A stretch of 64,000 nt of DNA, taken from NCBI RefSeq assembly GCF_030409835.1, contig NZ_JAUFQO010000004.1, positions 248,001-312,000 on the forward strand, written 5' to 3'. Position 1 is the first letter of the stretch. Each line of letters starts with the position of its first letter. The DNA comes from Lutimonas halocynthiae (GTDB lineage: Bacteria; Bacteroidota; Bacteroidia; Flavobacteriales; Flavobacteriaceae). A program made the position numbers and the translations under genes. Positions 26,443-34,008 of this stretch are shown piece by piece. Below the pieces are notes generated by a model. It was not told where the DNA came from. It did not search any database and was given only the letters and a program-made list of their open reading frames with translations.

Positions 26443-28305
26443 ATGAGATACCTATTGTTACTAATTCTATTTTTTGTCATAAACACCGCTGGTTTTGCAC
26501 AAAACTGCAGTGTTCAAAATATGGCGACAACCAAAGAATTCAAGTACGAACCAAAGTTTGGACAAATAGAAATTGACTGGTACCCAGAATGGCTGGAACA
26601 CACTAATGGCGTAAAAAAAATCCCTGAGCCTCTTAAAGCGCAACCAAAATGGGATCACCCTTATATGAAATACGGCTATACGGCTGCAATGCATGAAGGG
26701 CCAAGATCTTCAGATGTTTCCAATAGACCTGGACCTACCCAAAATAATCCTATAGTGCAATATTTTCATGTAAAACAAAAAGGGGGTGATTTTTCTGGGA
26801 TGTGCCCCACTTTCGCTTTTATCAATGATAGTACCATGGCAACCCTATCGTTTGGAAGAGCTAACACTACCCTATTACTTTTAGACATAAAAGATACTAT
26901 ACGGGTTTTAGATCACCTGCCCATTCCTGGAAGGGGAAGTTCTGCCTTTGAATTAGCAGGAAAAAAAGGAAGAGGGAAAATTTTTAGTAATACCGCAGGA
27001 GGCGCCTATTCCTATATTTCTAACAAAAATAGAATTTACATCCCAGGAGCCAATAATAATATTTTGCGGGTAACTGTAAAAGACAGAAAATTTATTAAAG
27101 ATGTTGAATCGGTAAATCTTAAGGCCCAAATTGAGGCTGGTAATTTAGTAGAACCCCATTTGTCTGAAAAAGACAAATTGAACCAATTGACTGCCTTAAT
27201 GCCTGATGTCAACGGTAATATCTGGTTCACATCGAGACAAGGCGTGGTTGGTTTGATACATCGTGAAGACAAAACAAAAGACGGCTGTCCAAAAGTTTAT
27301 TCAACGTTTATAGGATATTTTCAAATAAAGGAAAAAATTAAGGAGCATTATCCTGAGTCCCTTTCGGAAATTGAAAAAGTGCTTCCTTATATTCACAAAG
27401 ACAGTATCAACCCTGAGGCTCGCAGAATTGCGAGAACCGCTTTAAAAATTGATAAGGATACACACGAAGAAATTCAAAATTCGTTTTCAGTGGGTAAAGA
27501 TGGCGTTTATATTGTGTCTAATATTGCCCTCTATAAACTCCGGTTCAATGAGGAAACCAAAGATATTGAGTTAGATCCTAAATGGGCTGAATCGTTTAAA
27601 AAAGGTGAATTGGTCTATGATAATAATATGGAAAACAAACCCGGACATTTAAATGCTGGCAGTGGTACAACACCTACATTAATGGACGATAGGTTTGTTG
27701 CTATTTGTGACAATGATGAAGGAAAAATTAATTTATGTATTTTCAGGCAAGACGATGGTGAACTCGTTAGTAAGTTACCTTTATTTGGAAATAACGGAAG
27801 CGCCGTAGAAAACTCAGCGGTTGCATATGAAAATACATACATAGTAGCCAATACATTTGGCTACTCCGACCCTTTTAAGGTCAATGCCACACCTGGAGGG
27901 ATTATGCGATTTGATCTAAGTGAGGAATCCGGGAATTTTGAACCTGTTGAAGGTTGGCCAGCAAGCGGTGTATATGACTGTAAAACTGCTACACCAAAGT
28001 TATCAACCCGCACAGGAATGCTATATGTCTATAATCGAGATGAAGACACCACCACAGGGCATAGAGATTGGCAAGTTACGGGTATTGATTTTAGAACAGG
28101 TGTCAGAGTTGTTTATTCCAAGCTCTTTTTTGAAAAAGGTGACTTTAAGGACAATATCAATATTTTTATGAAAGCCGGATCGCTAGGCAACAAGCATTAC
28201 GATCGAAAAGTATTCAACAATATTTGGGGCACTTTTACATTTGGTCCTAATAACAGTTTCTACCTTGGCACTTACAGAGGGTTTATCAAAGTGTCTTCTG
28301 ATTAA
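26443..28305 (+). CDS. Large exported protein of unknown function, beta-propeller-like
   Basis: A 620-residue protein with a signal peptide cut near NTAGFA-Q, so periplasmic or exported. I do not recognise a named family. Repeating short strands such as DVNGNIWFTSRQGVVGLIH, GKDGVYIVSNIALYKLRF and DDRFVAICDNDEGKINLCIF, spaced about 60-80 residues apart, suggest a PQQ- or SMP-30-like beta-propeller. The region GRGSSAFELAGKKGRG and PTQNNPIVQYFHV are also distinctive. There is no T9SS C-terminal sorting domain and no CxxCH haem motif. The gene stands alone between the divergent DUF2461 gene and the convergent bioB. A sugar- or alcohol-handling role would be speculation. Confidence 0.7.
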   Translation: MRYLLLLILFFVINTAGFAQNCSVQNMATTKEFKYEPKFGQIEIDWYPEWLEHTNGVKKIPEPLKAQPKWDHPYMKYGYTAAMHEGPRSSDVSNRPGPTQNNPIVQYFHVKQKGGDFSGMCPTFAFINDSTMATLSFGRANTTLLLLDIKDTIRVLDHLPIPGRGSSAFELAGKKGRGKIFSNTAGGAYSYISNKNRIYIPGANNNILRVTVKDRKFIKDVESVNLKAQIEAGNLVEPHLSEKDKLNQLTALMPDVNGNIWFTSRQGVVGLIHREDKTKDGCPKVYSTFIGYFQIKEKIKEHYPESLSEIEKVLPYIHKDSINPEARRIARTALKIDKDTHEEIQNSFSVGKDGVYIVSNIALYKLRFNEETKDIELDPKWAESFKKGELVYDNNMENKPGHLNAGSGTTPTLMDDRFVAICDNDEGKINLCIFRQDDGELVSKLPLFGNNGSAVENSAVAYENTYIVANTFGYSDPFKVNATPGGIMRFDLSEESGNFEPVEGWPASGVYDCKTATPKLSTRTGMLYVYNRDEDTTTGHRDWQVTGIDFRTGVRVVYSKLFFEKGDFKDNINIFMKAGSLGNKHYDRKVFNNIWGTFTFGPNNSFYLGTYRGFIKVSSD

Positions 28306-28315
28306 TAGAATTGGA

Positions 28316-29407
28316 TTAACTCTCTTTAAGAGATTTTCTTATTTCTTTTGCCTTTTCGGTTGCCACGACATTTCTTTCAATCTTATGACCTGGTCTGCTC
28401 CATTTTTGACCTGCTTCAGCTTCCATGAGAGATTTTCTAATTTTGAATTTCCCAGTATCATCCTTTTTCTTTTCAGTAGGAATCAATCCTAAAAGAGAAA
28501 ACATTTCTGAATCTTTATCTTCACCTGGATTTGGCGTCGTCAATAATTTTTCTCCTGCAAAAATTGAAGAGGCTCCGGCCATAAAACACAAAGCCTGGCC
28601 TTCAGTACTCATCTCCGTTCTACCGGCAGATAATCTTACTGTAGTCTTAGGCATAACGATACGGGTTGTTGCAATCATTCTGATCACGTCCCAAACAGGA
28701 ACTATATTTTGTTCTTCAAGTGGCGTCCCTTCTACCGCAACTAAGGCATTAATAGGTACTGATTCTGGTTGAGGATCTAATTTAGAAAGACTTAATAACA
28801 TGCCTGCTCTATCCTCTATTTTTTCACCCATTCCAATGATGCCACCAGAACAAACTTTTAAAGCACTCTTTCTGACATTATTCAACGTTTCCAATCGATC
28901 TTCATAACCCCTGGTTGAGATTACTTCCTTATAGTACTCTTCTGATGTATCTAAATTATGATTATAATAATGTAAGCCCGCTTCAGCAAGACGTGTTGCC
29001 TGACTTTCAGTAACCATACCTAAAGTACAACAGACTTCCATGTTTAGCTCGCTGATTCCGCTTACCATTTTTAAGACGCTCTCAAAATCTTCTCCTTCTT
29101 TTACATTTCTCCAGGCAGCACCCATACAAACACGAGAAGATCCATTATCCTTTGCTCTTTTAGCCAAATTTAGAACCGTTTCGTAAGGCAATAGGTCATT
29201 TTTATCAATCTGAGTATGATATCTGGCAGCTTGAGGACAATAACCGCAATCTTCAGGACATCCACCCGTTTTGATTGAAATCAAGGTGCTCACCTGTACT
29301 TTCGAAGGATCGTGAAACTCACGATGTACCTGAGCCGCCTCAAAGATGAGTTCCATCAATGGCTTATTATATATATCTATTATTTCTTGTTTGGAATAGC
29401 TTCTCAT
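28316..29407 (-). CDS. bioB: Biotin synthase BioB
   Basis: A 363-residue radical SAM enzyme that inserts sulfur into dethiobiotin. The SAM cluster motif is C-P-E-D-C-G-Y-C in KTGGCPEDCGYCPQAARYHT; the second-cluster region includes CMGAAWRN, CCTLGM and the conserved Arg in TVRLSAGRTEM. The C-terminal 40 residues (IRKSLMEAEAGQKW onwards) are an extension common in flavobacterial BioB. It is the last gene of the biotin operon, 52 bases after the ketoacyl synthase gene. Confidence 0.97.
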   Translation of the reverse strand: MRSYSKQEIIDIYNKPLMELIFEAAQVHREFHDPSKVQVSTLISIKTGGCPEDCGYCPQAARYHTQIDKNDLLPYETVLNLAKRAKDNGSSRVCMGAAWRNVKEGEDFESVLKMVSGISELNMEVCCTLGMVTESQATRLAEAGLHYYNHNLDTSEEYYKEVISTRGYEDRLETLNNVRKSALKVCSGGIIGMGEKIEDRAGMLLSLSKLDPQPESVPINALVAVEGTPLEEQNIVPVWDVIRMIATTRIVMPKTTVRLSAGRTEMSTEGQALCFMAGASSIFAGEKLLTTPNPGEDKDSEMFSLLGLIPTEKKKDDTGKFKIRKSLMEAEAGQKWSRPGHKIERNVVATEKAKEIRKSLKES

Positions 29408-29459: not shown

Positions 29460-30617
29460 TCAATCTAAAGAAAGTAATACACTTACTGCATTTCCGCCAA
29501 AACCAACCGCATTCACCAAGACCTTCCTGATCTGCTTCGGCTTCTTCTTAAAACTGCCAAAAGGCACTTCTATAAATTGCTGGTGCTTCATCATCAAAAT
29601 TGCCAGTTCTAAACTCATCCCTCCTGATGCACCAAGAGAATGGCCTATCATCCATTTATTGGAAGTAAGCGCCGGATGATCATTACCAAAGACAATTTTT
29701 ATAGCATTGCATTCAGAACTATCCCCTTTGATAGTCCCGGGTGCGTGTGTAACAATGACATCAACTTGTTCTAATTCAATATCTTTTGTGGCCATCTTCA
29801 TCGATTTCTGGAAACAATCCGCATTTGTTGAAATCGAGATATTGTGTTTTAATGGTTCTGTAGCATAGCCTATCCCCTCGATCATCGCCAAAGCATTTTT
29901 ATGGCTGCCTTTTTCCAGGCAAAATACAGCCGCTGCTTCCCCAAGTACAAATGTATTTATGGTTTTTTCCATATCAAGACTAAGACAAGGGTATTCTGAA
30001 TTCTGTCTTGCATAAATTTTTAGGGCTTTCATTTGGGCTATAGTAAAGGGCGTGTTTGATGCCTCGCTTCCGCCGGCCAGAAAACGATCACTCATGCCGC
30101 TCCCTATCCAGGCAATCCCGTTTAATATACCATGCAAAGCAGTTGAACAAGCTATAGAATGGCTAATTACCGGACCGTTACTTTGCAGGTCATGCCCAAC
30201 CCAAGACGAAATATTTCCAAGGGTTGTGGTGGGTGAACTCAAGGTATTCACCAAACCTTTTTCATTGTCATTAAACTCTTTAAAGTATTTTTCAAATAAA
30301 TGAGTGGCCCCTCTGGAGGAGCCAATATTTACACCAAACTCCTTTTGATGCCAGTCTGTATGAGCAAGCGCTTTCCTAGAAATATAAATCGCCATTAAGA
30401 CTGAAGGGTCTAAATCTTTATAATTTTTAACAGCCTTCAACTGTTCAATCTCAGTCAGACAGGTTTCTGGAACGCCACTGACTAGGGCAGAGAATTTATC
30501 AAAAACGCTACAGCCAATCAAAGACTTCCCTTCGATATAACGCTTCCAGATTTGAGCTTCTGAGTCACCTAAAGCAGATACCGAAGCCATTGAAACTATG
30601 GAAATTCTTTCGTTCAT
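29460..30617 (-). CDS. Beta-ketoacyl synthase in the biotin operon
   Basis: A 385-residue thiolase-fold condensing enzyme of the KAS I/II (FabB/FabF) type. The Cys-His-His triad is complete: Cys157 in SHSIACSTALHG, His291 in VTHAPGTIKGDS and His326 in KWMIGHSLGASGG. It lacks some FabF hallmark residues (the second motif is HAPGT instead of HGTGT), so it is a diverged specialist. It lies one base after bioA and 52 bases before bioB. The operon has no bioC, bioH, bioG, bioI or bioW, so the enzyme is a candidate for making the pimeloyl chain, by analogy with the KAS III-type BioZ. That role is inference. Confidence 0.85.
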   Translation of the reverse strand: MNERISIVSMASVSALGDSEAQIWKRYIEGKSLIGCSVFDKFSALVSGVPETCLTEIEQLKAVKNYKDLDPSVLMAIYISRKALAHTDWHQKEFGVNIGSSRGATHLFEKYFKEFNDNEKGLVNTLSSPTTTLGNISSWVGHDLQSNGPVISHSIACSTALHGILNGIAWIGSGMSDRFLAGGSEASNTPFTIAQMKALKIYARQNSEYPCLSLDMEKTINTFVLGEAAAVFCLEKGSHKNALAMIEGIGYATEPLKHNISISTNADCFQKSMKMATKDIELEQVDVIVTHAPGTIKGDSSECNAIKIVFGNDHPALTSNKWMIGHSLGASGGMSLELAILMMKHQQFIEVPFGSFKKKPKQIRKVLVNAVGFGGNAVSVLLSLD

Positions 30618-30618
30618 A

Positions 30619-31884
30619 TCAAATTATGTCTAAACATTTTTCAATCACCTCATATATCTTGTCAAGTTCACTATCAGTGATCACATAGGGAGGAAGCGTA
30701 TAAACTGTATTACCAAGCGGCCTTAATACAACCCCTTCCTTCATAAAAAAAGCATATAATTGATCTCTTAATTTTCCGTACCTATCCATCTGAACATTGA
30801 GGTCTAAGGCAAATATAACGCCTCGTACACGGGTTGATTTTACTTTAGGGTTATTGCTAATATGGCGCTCAAATTTAAGATGGCGTTTGTTTATCCTTTG
30901 AATATTATTCTGAATTTCCTCTGAACACAAAAGATCTATTCCGGCTATAGCCGCCGTACAAGCCAATGGGTTTGCTGAATAGGTATGTCCATGAAAAAAT
31001 CCCTTGCTGATCTCATCATCGTAAAAGGCATCATATACTTTTTGACTGCAGCATGTGAGCGCCATTGGAGCAACTCCTGCCGTTAGCGATTTGGATAAAC
31101 AAATTAAATCAGGTTTTGCTTCCATGTATTCAGAAGCGAAATTCAGACCCGTTTTACCAAATCCTGTCATGACTTCATCTGCTATGGTTAGCACCTGTGC
31201 TTTTTGAGCTATACTTATGAGCTGATCTAAATGTTCCGGAGCGAACATGTGCATGGATGCTGCTCCTTGCACCAAAGGCTCATAAATGAAAGCTGCAACC
31301 TCACCCGTATCCAGTAAATTCTTAAATTCCTTGACAACTGATTCCCAATTCTGCTCATCTGGAACAGCTATTCTTTCAATACGCAGTAAAAAATCTTCAA
31401 AAGGACCATTATAAACTGACAGTCCTGATACTGACATAGCACCAAAAGTATCGCCGTGAAACGCATTGTGTAATGCAATTACTTTGTTGCGTTTTTCACC
31501 CTTGTTAAAATAATATTGTAAAGCTATTTTAATGGCAACATCTACTGAAGTAGAACCGTTGTCTGAAAAGAAAATTTTAGCCATATTGTCTGGTAAAATA
31601 TCCATCAACTTTTCAGAAAGTTCAATTGCAGGAGGATGTGTAAATCCGCTGAACACAACCTGATCAAGTACTCCTAATTGTTGCTTTACTGCTGATATGA
31701 TTTTTGGATTGCTATGCCCATACATACAGGTATACCAACTTGCAATTCCGTCTATATATTTATTTCCTTCATCATCAAATAACCAAACTCCTTCAGCTCT
31801 GACAATTGGCAAATGTTCGGGATGTAATTTATGCTGCGTCAATGGATGCCATAAATGCTTCCGGTCTCTTTGTTTCAGGTTCAT
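30619..31884 (-). CDS. bioA: DAPA aminotransferase BioA
   Basis: A 421-residue class III aminotransferase (adenosylmethionine-8-amino-7-oxononanoate aminotransferase). It opens with the BioA hallmark HLWHPLTQHK; later come DGIASWYTCMYGHSNP, NAFHGDTFGAMSVSGLS and the PLP-lysine segment LICLSKSLTAGVAPM. It converts KAPA to DAPA in the biotin pathway, using SAM as amino donor in most bacteria. The bioD stop and bioA start overlap as TAATG; the ketoacyl synthase gene begins one base after its stop. Confidence 0.96.
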   Translation of the reverse strand: MNLKQRDRKHLWHPLTQHKLHPEHLPIVRAEGVWLFDDEGNKYIDGIASWYTCMYGHSNPKIISAVKQQLGVLDQVVFSGFTHPPAIELSEKLMDILPDNMAKIFFSDNGSTSVDVAIKIALQYYFNKGEKRNKVIALHNAFHGDTFGAMSVSGLSVYNGPFEDFLLRIERIAVPDEQNWESVVKEFKNLLDTGEVAAFIYEPLVQGAASMHMFAPEHLDQLISIAQKAQVLTIADEVMTGFGKTGLNFASEYMEAKPDLICLSKSLTAGVAPMALTCCSQKVYDAFYDDEISKGFFHGHTYSANPLACTAAIAGIDLLCSEEIQNNIQRINKRHLKFERHISNNPKVKSTRVRGVIFALDLNVQMDRYGKLRDQLYAFFMKEGVVLRPLGNTVYTLPPYVITDSELDKIYEVIEKCLDII

Positions 31885-32504
31885 TATAATGCCTCCAATC
31901 TTGGTTTAAACAACTTTGCGTACTTTTTGATTACAGTTTTATCAACAAGCGCTTCCTCATCAATTCTGCCAATTTCTTTTACCTTTCCCATCTTTTTTAT
32001 AATGTCTTCAGTACTTGCATGGACTGCACCATTAAAAATAATACCGGCTACTTCAAGACCTTCAGCCCTTAATTGACTCAAGGTAAGCAGGGTATGATTG
32101 ATACTCCCTAAATAATGTCTGGATACAACAATGACCTTATAATCATCCTTGATCATATCAAGTATGGTTTCTCTGTCATTCAACGGAACCAATAGGCCAC
32201 CTGCTCCTTCAATTACAAGGTTATTATCTGTTTTCGGCTCTATAATTTGCTTAAGGTCTATTTTTACCCCATCAATTTCAGCTGAGGCATGAGGGCTCAT
32301 TGGCGTCTTTAATGCATAGCTATGGCCGTGCATCACTGACCTTGAATTAGAGATTAACTCCTCTATAGAATGGGTATCACTATGCGATAGTTCTCCAGCC
32401 TGAACCGGCTTCCAGTAATCAGCTTGCAAAGCCTCCACAACTATTGCCGACACAACTGTTTTCCCTACGTCAGTACCTATTCCAGTAATGAAATATTTAT
32501 TCAT
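31884..32504 (-). CDS. bioD: Dethiobiotin synthetase BioD
   Basis: A 206-residue P-loop ligase that closes the ureido ring of dethiobiotin. The ATP-binding motif is ITGIGTDVGKTVVSAI at the N-terminus, followed by YWKPVQAG and the switch region VIEGAGGLLVPL, all characteristic of BioD. Its stop overlaps the bioA start as TAATG, and it follows bioF by 17 bases, so the three are one transcriptional unit. Confidence 0.96.
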   Translation of the reverse strand: MNKYFITGIGTDVGKTVVSAIVVEALQADYWKPVQAGELSHSDTHSIEELISNSRSVMHGHSYALKTPMSPHASAEIDGVKIDLKQIIEPKTDNNLVIEGAGGLLVPLNDRETILDMIKDDYKVIVVSRHYLGSINHTLLTLSQLRAEGLEVAGIIFNGAVHASTEDIIKKMGKVKEIGRIDEEALVDKTVIKKYAKLFKPRLEAL

Positions 32505-32521: not shown

Positions 32522-33652
32522 CTAGACAAAAGTACTCAATAAAAAAAGAATTTCTTGAATGTCTGCTGAAGTATTATGACTGTGAACACAAAATCTTATG
32601 CGTTCCTGACCTGCTGGAACTGTTGGGCTCAATATAGGTTTTACGTCAAAATTGTGTGCATTGAGTTGATGTGATATGCGCTTCACTTCTTCATTCGATG
32701 CAATTATTGCACTCTGGATAGGGCTGTTACTCTTTATAAAGAAATTTTCTAATTTATTCTTGACAATCATTGCTCTGAAATGCGCGACTTTCTCGGAAAG
32801 AACTGTTCTGTCTTTCGTAGATTTCAAAAACAACAGCGCATTTTTAATTGCCAACACATTGTGAACGGGCATAGCTGTTGTATAAATAAAAGATCTGGCA
32901 AAATTTATGAGAAACTGAATGAGTAAAGCATCACCAACTATGGCAGCACCATGGCAGCCAAGCGCTTTTCCGAATGTATAAATTCTGGCAAAGACAAAGG
33001 CTGATAAACCTAAATCATTAACCATTCCTTGCCCCTCTGATCCACAAACGCCTGTTGAATGTGCCTCATCTACAATCAGATTTAGATCATAAGCTTTTGA
33101 GATTTCAACTAATCCGTTTAAAGGTGCTGCATCCCCATCCATAGAATAAACGGATTCAACAACCAGATACCCTTGGGTACCTGTTCCCATTTTTTCAAGT
33201 TTTTGCCTTAAGTCATCAAGATCATTATGCTTAAACCTATAGGATTTCGCATTAGACAATCTGATTCCATCGCGTATGGAAGCATGTGAGCTTTCATCAT
33301 AAAAAATACAATCACCTCTTTGGGGTACTGAAGAGAGCAATCCGATATTGGCATCATAACCTGAATTAAATAAGAGTGCTGCTTCTCCATTAAAAAATGA
33401 GGCCAGTTGCTTCTCTAAAGCTTCATGGAAATTAAAATTACCAGACAACAATCGAGATCCCGTACTGCCATTATTTGGAAAATATGAATCTAAATCTTCT
33501 TGTACCTGCTTAAAAATGATAGGATTCCTGGCAAAACCAAGGTAGTCATTCGACGAAAAATCGATCAGATCATTTTGGGGTGAGAGACTTCTTAAACTTC
33601 CATTCTCTTGGCGAGTGTCTAATTTGAATAACAAATTTGAAGGAAACTTCAT
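32522..33652 (-). CDS. bioF: 8-amino-7-oxononanoate synthase BioF
   Basis: A 376-residue alpha-oxoamine synthase that joins alanine to pimeloyl-ACP or -CoA. The PLP enzyme motifs are present: FSSNDYLGFA, GSTGSRLLSGN, IVDEAHSTGVCG and the lysine segment TFGKALGCHGAAI. It is shorter at the C-terminus than some relatives but complete. It is the first gene of the biotin operon. A terminator hairpin ends only about 12 bases before its ATG, so its promoter must overlap or lie upstream of that hairpin, in the DUF3467 gene. Confidence 0.95.
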   Translation of the reverse strand: MKFPSNLLFKLDTRQENGSLRSLSPQNDLIDFSSNDYLGFARNPIIFKQVQEDLDSYFPNNGSTGSRLLSGNFNFHEALEKQLASFFNGEAALLFNSGYDANIGLLSSVPQRGDCIFYDESSHASIRDGIRLSNAKSYRFKHNDLDDLRQKLEKMGTGTQGYLVVESVYSMDGDAAPLNGLVEISKAYDLNLIVDEAHSTGVCGSEGQGMVNDLGLSAFVFARIYTFGKALGCHGAAIVGDALLIQFLINFARSFIYTTAMPVHNVLAIKNALLFLKSTKDRTVLSEKVAHFRAMIVKNKLENFFIKSNSPIQSAIIASNEEVKRISHQLNAHNFDVKPILSPTVPAGQERIRFCVHSHNTSADIQEILFLLSTFV

Positions 33653-33663
33653 AAGGCTAAAAT

Positions 33664-33690
33664 AAAAAAAAACGGGTAATAACCCGTTTT
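33664..33690 (-). terminator. Terminator-like hairpin between the DUF3467 gene and bioF
   Basis: On the minus strand AAAACGGGT (33690-33682) pairs with ACCCGTTTT (33677-33669) over 9 bp with a four-base loop, running into a tract of nine T residues. It ends the DUF3467 transcript. The bioF ATG is just 12 bases downstream, so the hairpin also sits in the bioF leader. Confidence 0.85.
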
Positions 33691-33699
33691 AATCTTCTT

Positions 33700-34008
33700 T
33701 TAAGCTTGCCCCGTAGGCCCAAAATTCATGGGAATAGGCGGTTGCTCATAATCTTTAATCTCACCATTCTTAGCTTCGAAACGATTAATGTTTTCCGCTA
33801 AGGCCTTAGATAGCCTTTTTGCATGCTGAGGCGTTAATATAATTCTTGACTTTACCTTTGATTTAGGCGAGCCAGGCATTACGTTTATAAAATCTACTAC
33901 AAATTCTGAAATAGAATGATTGATAATCGCAAGATTGGCATAAGTACCATCTGCTGTTTTCTCATCTATCTCAATATTTAACTGATTCTGTTTTGTTTCT
34001 TCTGACAT
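33700..34008 (-). CDS. DUF3467 family protein
   Basis: A 102-residue acidic protein of the DUF3467 family. The core INHSISEFVVDFINVMPGS, KSRIILTPQHAKRLSKALAENINRFE matches over its length, and it ends in PPIPMNFGPTGQA. The family is found downstream of rpoC throughout Bacteroidota. No function has been shown; its steady position suggests a part in RNA polymerase or transcription, as inference. Only about 15 bases separate the rpoC terminator from its ATG, so it depends on read-through or on a promoter inside the end of rpoC. Confidence 0.9.
   Translation of the reverse strand: MSEETKQNQLNIEIDEKTADGTYANLAIINHSISEFVVDFINVMPGSPKSKVKSRIILTPQHAKRLSKALAENINRFEAKNGEIKDYEQPPIPMNFGPTGQA

Follow-up and report, generated by a model that had tools for sequence, protein, structure and literature searches.

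How does a bacterium whose biotin operon encodes every late step of the pathway, with none of the familiar early enzymes beside them, come by its pimeloyl precursor? The question is raised by a stretch of 64,000 nucleotides from Lutimonas halocynthiae (hereafter the window), on the minus strand of which an earlier note had read the operon bioF-bioD-bioA-KAS-bioB and had proposed that its ketoacyl synthase (KAS) of the FabB/FabF type supplies the pimelate. Pfam and NCBIfam matches bear out this gene order, with bioF (32522..33652, 376 aa) followed on the minus strand by bioD (31884..32504, 206 aa), bioA (30619..31884, 421 aa), the KAS gene (29460..30617, 385 aa) and bioB (28316..29407, 363 aa). 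The NCBIfam cut-offs are passed by bioA (TIGR00508, 530.2 bits, cut-off 405), bioB (TIGR00433, 388.6 bits, cut-off 225), and bioD (TIGR00347, 129.5 bits, cut-off 83.3); bioF, named from its operon position and its best NCBIfam match (TIGR00858, 347.5 bits), falls short of its own cut-off of 426.45. The bioD and bioA genes overlap by one base, the KAS ATG stands one base past the bioA stop, as had been claimed and as the sequence confirms, and 52 bases lie between the KAS stop and the bioB start.

A nine-pair stem with a T run at 33669-33690 of the window lies between bioF and a DUF3467 ORF (33700-34008), itself downstream of a 1422-aa rpoC-like ORF, and may separate the rpoC-like/DUF3467 transcript from that of bioF; a promoter and terminator scan of the window returned sites no more numerous than in shuffled sequences. 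The same order of a 1422-aa gene, a 102-aa gene, and bioF is seen at three other loci (L114-L116). On the far side of the operon, a 620-aa ORF (26443-28305), convergent with bioB, has no Pfam or NCBIfam match.

Both domain halves of a KAS I/II enzyme are present in the product of the KAS gene, which is termed here bio-KAS and is proposed from its sequence to be a pimeloyl-precursor synthase: ketoacyl-synt (PF00109) is matched at 73.3 bits and Ketoacyl-synt_C (PF02801) at 67 bits, with no match to a KAS III model in Pfam. Eighteen NCBIfam families are matched and the cut-off is reached for none, the FabF equivalog TIGR03150 scoring 154.6 bits against a required 493.75. The catalytic residues described in the earlier note, Cys157-His291-His326 with a diverged HAPGT motif, are upheld by the alignments; their codons lie on the minus strand at 30147..30149 (Cys157, TGT), 29745..29747 (His291, within HAPGT), and 29640..29642 (His326). 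The triad and the P-G-T of the motif are invariant across a 28-row alignment, and Cys157, His291, His326, and Lys321 are found in all 115 rows of the bio-KAS family, on account of which the enzyme should be active.

An AlphaFold2 model built on 51 sequences (mean pLDDT 88, pTM 0.90; weakest at residues 128-134 and 154-156) has a complete FabF fold, and the 50 top-ranked solved structures listed against it are chains of FabF, FabB, and other related KAS enzymes, with Z of 48-50 and an rmsd of 2.3-2.5 over 368-379 residues at 21-27% identity. With its Cys-His-His triad and its thiolase-like KAS fold, the protein belongs to the KAS I/II (FabB/FabF) superfamily; it falls outside FabF (KAS II) itself, being below the cut-off of TIGR03150 and having Arg102 in place of Ile at position 108.

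This Arg (codon AGA, 30312..30314, minus strand) is the most telling change in the predicted acyl pocket, the residues of which were mapped through the alignment. In an ungapped stretch, Arg102 aligns with the Ile of GSGIGG in Vibrio FabF, and in each of the two proteins the active-site Cys follows 55 residues later; from this spacing, we take that Ile to be Ile108 of E. coli FabF. Arg occupies the position in 115 of 115 bio-KAS rows (108 of them distinct) and in 0 of 25 FabF-like KAS rows (two encoded in the window's genome and 23 elsewhere in the class), which carry Val (14), Ile (8), Gln (2), or Asn (1). F202 and I108 are given, in an excerpt of PMC7138838, as the residues that gate the acyl pocket of FabF, and the Phe202 position is likewise altered, being Met in 105 of the 115 bio-KAS rows. 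Among the other pocket positions, the sole clear change from hydrophobic to polar is Ser128, invariant in bio-KAS and Ile in 19 of the 25 FabF-like rows. Thr132 is also invariant and Thr131 nearly so (Thr in 114 of 115, Ser in one); since the FabF-like rows are mixed at these two positions and often polar (at 131, His in 13 and Met in 9; at 132, Ile in 9 and Asp in 8), the two Thr residues are to be regarded as specific rather than as simply more polar.

The family so defined forms a separate clade on a long branch, its 43 rows being divided from 25 FabF-like rows with an SH-aLRT of 100 in a quick tree that carries long-branch warnings for L201, L200, L060, L061, and L063, with L061 joining next to the FabF-like rows. 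The division of members from FabF-like proteins was set at 195 bits, a threshold chosen after a gap had been seen between 207.9 (L201) and 192.6 (L203), and it agrees with the tree.

Linkage of the family to biotin genes recurs within the class. Close KAS homologues occur in 27 of 395 genomes of the class, the window's included, as counted with one query at E <= 1e-40, and a profile run on 57 genomes added three further members (in G274, G028, and G082). All 27 of these KAS-positive genomes hold bioB, which is present in 213 of the 395, and all 27 hold bioA over its cut-off. Among 14 genomes of the window's own family, Flavobacteriaceae, the KAS is present in nine of nine with bioA and in none of five lacking it, a pattern with a probability of 1/2002 when the margins are fixed and kinship is ignored; one of the five, G101, retains bioB. 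Two loci of this family, L039 and L040, coincide with contig stretches recorded under Flavobacterium profundi (L147) and Flavobacterium limi (L181). According to an excerpt of PMC9561691, the vast majority of the Flavobacteriia surveyed have bioF, bioA, bioD, and bioB.

Of 26 class loci other than the window, with genes named after their best blastp match among the window's proteins, 23 have one or more bio genes in the fetched flanks, and 11 show the full set of bioB, bioF, bioD, bioA, and the KAS under a crude ORF caller. Among the best 80 named loci from a search by a single peptide pattern (family membership was sampled inside the class only), at least one bio gene is near the KAS in 79 and all four are in 48; the genera represented include Flavobacterium, Tenacibaculum, Zobellia, Maribacter, Arenibacter, Cellulophaga, and Aquimarina. 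Residence in a bio cluster, a trait of the type known from BioZ, is hence a property of this KAS as well. Three of the 26 class loci (L050, L058, and L059) have a KAS with the Arg retained and no bio gene in the flanks read, and in L201, the locus of G082, a KAS with the Arg retained lies far from that genome's bioA and bioB; both genes are present in each of these four genomes.

The proposal of a KAS I/II-type enzyme as the source of the pimelate gains support from the conservation of the operon over many families and the presence of the KAS together with bioA, from the intact triad and the invariant pocket Arg, and from searches of the 27 KAS-positive genomes, none of which holds BioC over its cut-off, BioE (by profile), or BioW. 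On this evidence bio-KAS is probably a condensing enzyme dedicated to biotin synthesis, one that takes chains whose omega-carboxylate is free and forms the pimeloyl precursor with no masking by BioC and BioH; the substrate, the product, the number of rounds, the control of chain length, and the facing of the Arg towards the chain are what we infer from the sequence comparisons. A short dicarboxylyl chain (malonyl and/or glutaryl) would be held as a thioester on Cys157, its omega-carboxylate would be neutralised by Arg102 in the acyl pocket, and its condensation with malonyl-ACP would give 3-oxopimeloyl-ACP, to be reduced by the ordinary enzymes of fatty acid synthesis to pimeloyl-ACP, on which BioF acts. 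To hold the free omega-carboxylate of a short chain, just such an Arg at the gating position would be needed. As stated in an excerpt of PMC7645780, BioC masks the carboxyl because a free one was thought not to be tolerated by the hydrophobic active sites of the fatty acid enzymes; with bio-KAS, the methyl mask (BioC) and the esterase (BioH, BioG) would be unneeded under either primer.

As to the primer, a tentative preference is given to malonyl-ACP and two rounds of elongation (C3 to C5 to C7), a version that would require nothing beyond fatty acid synthesis. In such a three-malonate route, which may be entertained with similar reserve, malonyl-ACP would serve as both primer and extender, the acid would stay unmasked, and extension would end at C7, the pocket having room for no diacids but those of C3 and C5. 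A glutaryl thioester would require one round only, together with a source of glutaryl, and a rather unlikely variant nested in the same proposal envisages a single round on glutaryl-CoA or glutaryl-ACP derived from lysine breakdown, the reaction of BioZ being carried out by a KAS I/II body. A C5 diacid would pair well with the Arg at position 108, and a CoA_transf_3 protein was found in 12 of the 27 KAS-positive genomes; BioZ joins glutaryl-CoA and malonyl-ACP, and glutaryl-CoA is made in Agrobacterium by the type III CoA-transferase CaiB (both from excerpts of PMC7645780), but the window's genome holds no CoA_transf_3 (CaiB-type CoA-transferase) protein. The usual substrate of KAS I/II enzymes is, moreover, acyl-ACP, a preference that counts against glutaryl-CoA as the primer.

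For the preferred reading of an enzyme that handles the unmasked acid, the early enzymes of the window's genome, which is 99.9% complete, are of direct concern. No BioC over the cut-off was found there, the best of 13 weak matches to the BioC model reaching 74.5-74.9 bits against 184.95. That best match (L001) is better taken as a trans-aconitate methyltransferase, at 87.5 bits (the cut-off of 297 for that family is also unmet), and it adjoins an argininosuccinate-lyase-like gene (PF00206) with no bio genes beside it. Neither BioW nor a P450 (BioI) was found in the genome by searches that matched a Bacillus subtilis control, and BioE was not found with a profile that is positive in other members of the class. 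BioG was also without a match in the genome; no control genome was matched in that search, and the model does recognise a BioG in L097. The absence of early enzymes stated in the earlier note accordingly stands for BioC over the cut-off, BioW, the P450 BioI, and, with no control match, BioG, and its alternative of a bioC elsewhere in the genome loses ground. BioH, being a generic alpha/beta hydrolase, is not recognisable by a family search. A hidden, diverged BioC could in principle act with such a BioH to mask and unmask the carboxylate, the KAS then serving as a specialised methyl-ester elongase, and the 13 weak BioC-model matches leave some material for this. It is nevertheless improbable: the top match reads better as another methyltransferase and lies away from the bio genes, the invariant pocket Arg would not be needed for a methyl ester, and elsewhere in the class six genomes have a BioC that passes the cut-off of the model.

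These six BioC-positive genomes (of the 395) are all without the KAS, and in L097 the BioC has a BioG neighbour. In two BioC-type genomes a single open frame carries the matches to both bioB and bioA (L097:7999-10215 and L101:8317-10728), which suggests a fused BioB-BioA protein.

The BioE route, which was outside the options of the earlier note, is also represented within the class. Proteins of about 210 residues stand beside late bio genes, bioF or bioA, in three loci (L076:6382-7002, L090:5224-5880, and L091:6817-7449); they have no Pfam match (three tested) and no NCBIfam match (two tested). Residues L22, E26, Y117, I124, and L131 of Elizabethkingia BioE are found under identical numbering in the L091 protein, and the six diiron ligands of Chlamydia BioE show a constant offset of 15 in comparison with it; from these residue numbers and the constant offset, the proteins are taken as putative BioE-like diiron proteins.

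In a panel of 80 genomes, chosen by hand so that its proportions are not class frequencies, the BioE profile was positive in six. The 71 panel genomes with bioA over the cut-off comprise 30 with the KAS (the 27 and the three added by profile), six with BioE, six with BioC, and 29 with none of these. With 29 of 71 in this position, missing genes alone are weak proof of a new route. Mutual exclusion is similarly uninformative, since that of KAS and BioC (27 and six of the 213 bioB-positive genomes) and that of KAS and BioE (27 and six of the panel) are both compatible with chance. A P450 occurs in 12 of the 27 KAS-positive genomes, and the exclusion of BioI thus applies to the window's genome alone.

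The 29 panel genomes with neither KAS, BioE, nor BioC include G003, G005, G006, G007, and G011, with loci L082, L083, L085, and L099. An ORF of 244-253 aa lies between bioB and bioF in L083, L085, and L099, with no Pfam match in all three, and a Vut_1 transporter (PF02592) follows bioA in L083, a similar ORF being seen by eye in L082 and L085.

Other genes recur within the KAS clusters themselves. Among the best 80 named loci, an ORF of 115-160 aa separates bioF from bioD in 35 of 69 loci (DUF2007 in two tested), one of 280-295 aa follows bioB in 24 of 44 (Cupin_8 in one tested), and one of about 470 aa lies between the KAS and bioB in 15 of 46 (Band_7 in one tested). Recurrence was judged by size and place; the insertions of L178, L040, and L041 were read by eye and five of the ORFs were compared with Pfam (four from L178, one from L041), the DUF2007/Cupin_8 ORFs being those at L178:3984-4364, L041:5514-5924, and L178:12572-13429. 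Neither the DUF2007-type nor the Cupin_8-type ORF is at the corresponding place in the window's operon.

It is on these recurring DUF2007- and Cupin_8-type ORFs that another reading could draw, by which the KAS chain is cut to pimeloyl by some other, unrecognised enzyme, or the KAS serves another product made with biotin; a cutting enzyme has its precedent in BioE, which cuts long acyl chains to pimeloyl (as described in an excerpt of PMC12915131) and is present in the panel. Such a reading is decidedly improbable, because BioE is missing from every KAS-positive genome and a P450 from the window's, the recurring ORFs are not so placed in the window and are each lacking in roughly half of the loci counted, and the pocket Arg would be ill-suited to a plain acyl chain. 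Least of all can one credit an ordinary fatty acid elongase that entered the operon by chance, for, full as its FabF fold and intact as its triad may be, the KAS sits in a separate long-branch clade and reaches no NCBIfam cut-off, appears only with bioA in the Flavobacteriaceae sample, and has exchanged the Ile108 position for Arg throughout bio-KAS.

A dedicated condensing enzyme for unmasked chains is the reading to be set against the known systems, early biotin synthesis having so far been solved route by route. Within a partial coverage of the open-access literature, no description was found of a flavobacterial bio operon that contains a KAS. If true, the proposal of a KAS dedicated to this task, its Arg binding the carboxylate, would explain the pimelate source of the KAS-positive genomes, in which no BioC, BioE, or BioW was found; in the tentatively preferred malonyl version, Bacteroidetes would be using the long-dismissed three-malonate route to pimelate. 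In many of their biotin operons, a remodelled synthase of the fatty acid synthesis type probably builds the seven-carbon starting piece directly.

With the BioC-BioH and BioC-BioG systems, bio-KAS would share the building of pimeloyl-ACP via the fatty acid cycle, whereas those systems require a methyl mask and an esterase. With BioE, the diiron oxygenase of Elizabethkingia and Chlamydia (excerpt of PMC12915131), it has in common that a gene for the pimelate route is placed in bio clusters of the class (as in L076, L090, and L091); BioE is, however, an unrelated protein that cuts long-chain acyl thioesters, as the same excerpt has it, and is found in 0 of 27 KAS-positive genomes. With FabF and FabB the whole fold and the triad with its Lys (C157, H291, H326, and K321) are shared, and the differences lie in the Arg at 108, the Met at 202 in 105 of 115 rows, the change of HGT to HAP in the window, the separate clade, and scores far below every FabF cut-off.

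BioZ, the KAS III-type enzyme of Agrobacterium and relatives, is likewise a ketoacyl synthase encoded in a bio cluster, and it replaces BioC and BioH (excerpts of PMC7645780 and PMC8024396). At the bottom of its tunnel, S84, R147, and S287 are proposed to neutralise the glutaryl carboxylate, and mutants S84A and S287A failed whereas R147A was partly active (excerpt of PMC8024396); in view of this partial activity, the Arg of BioZ is not a clean precedent for Arg102. BioZ is a homologue of FabH with a Cys-His-Asn triad, whereas bio-KAS is a homologue of FabF with Cys-His-His, of separate origin; since triad and domains differ, bio-KAS is not a BioZ. BioZ also uses glutaryl-CoA once, where bio-KAS may use malonyl-ACP twice. 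The closest relatives of bio-KAS are hence BioZ in proposed function and FabF in descent, and it is probably a ketoacyl synthase that was drawn into pimelate synthesis from a KAS class different from that of BioZ.
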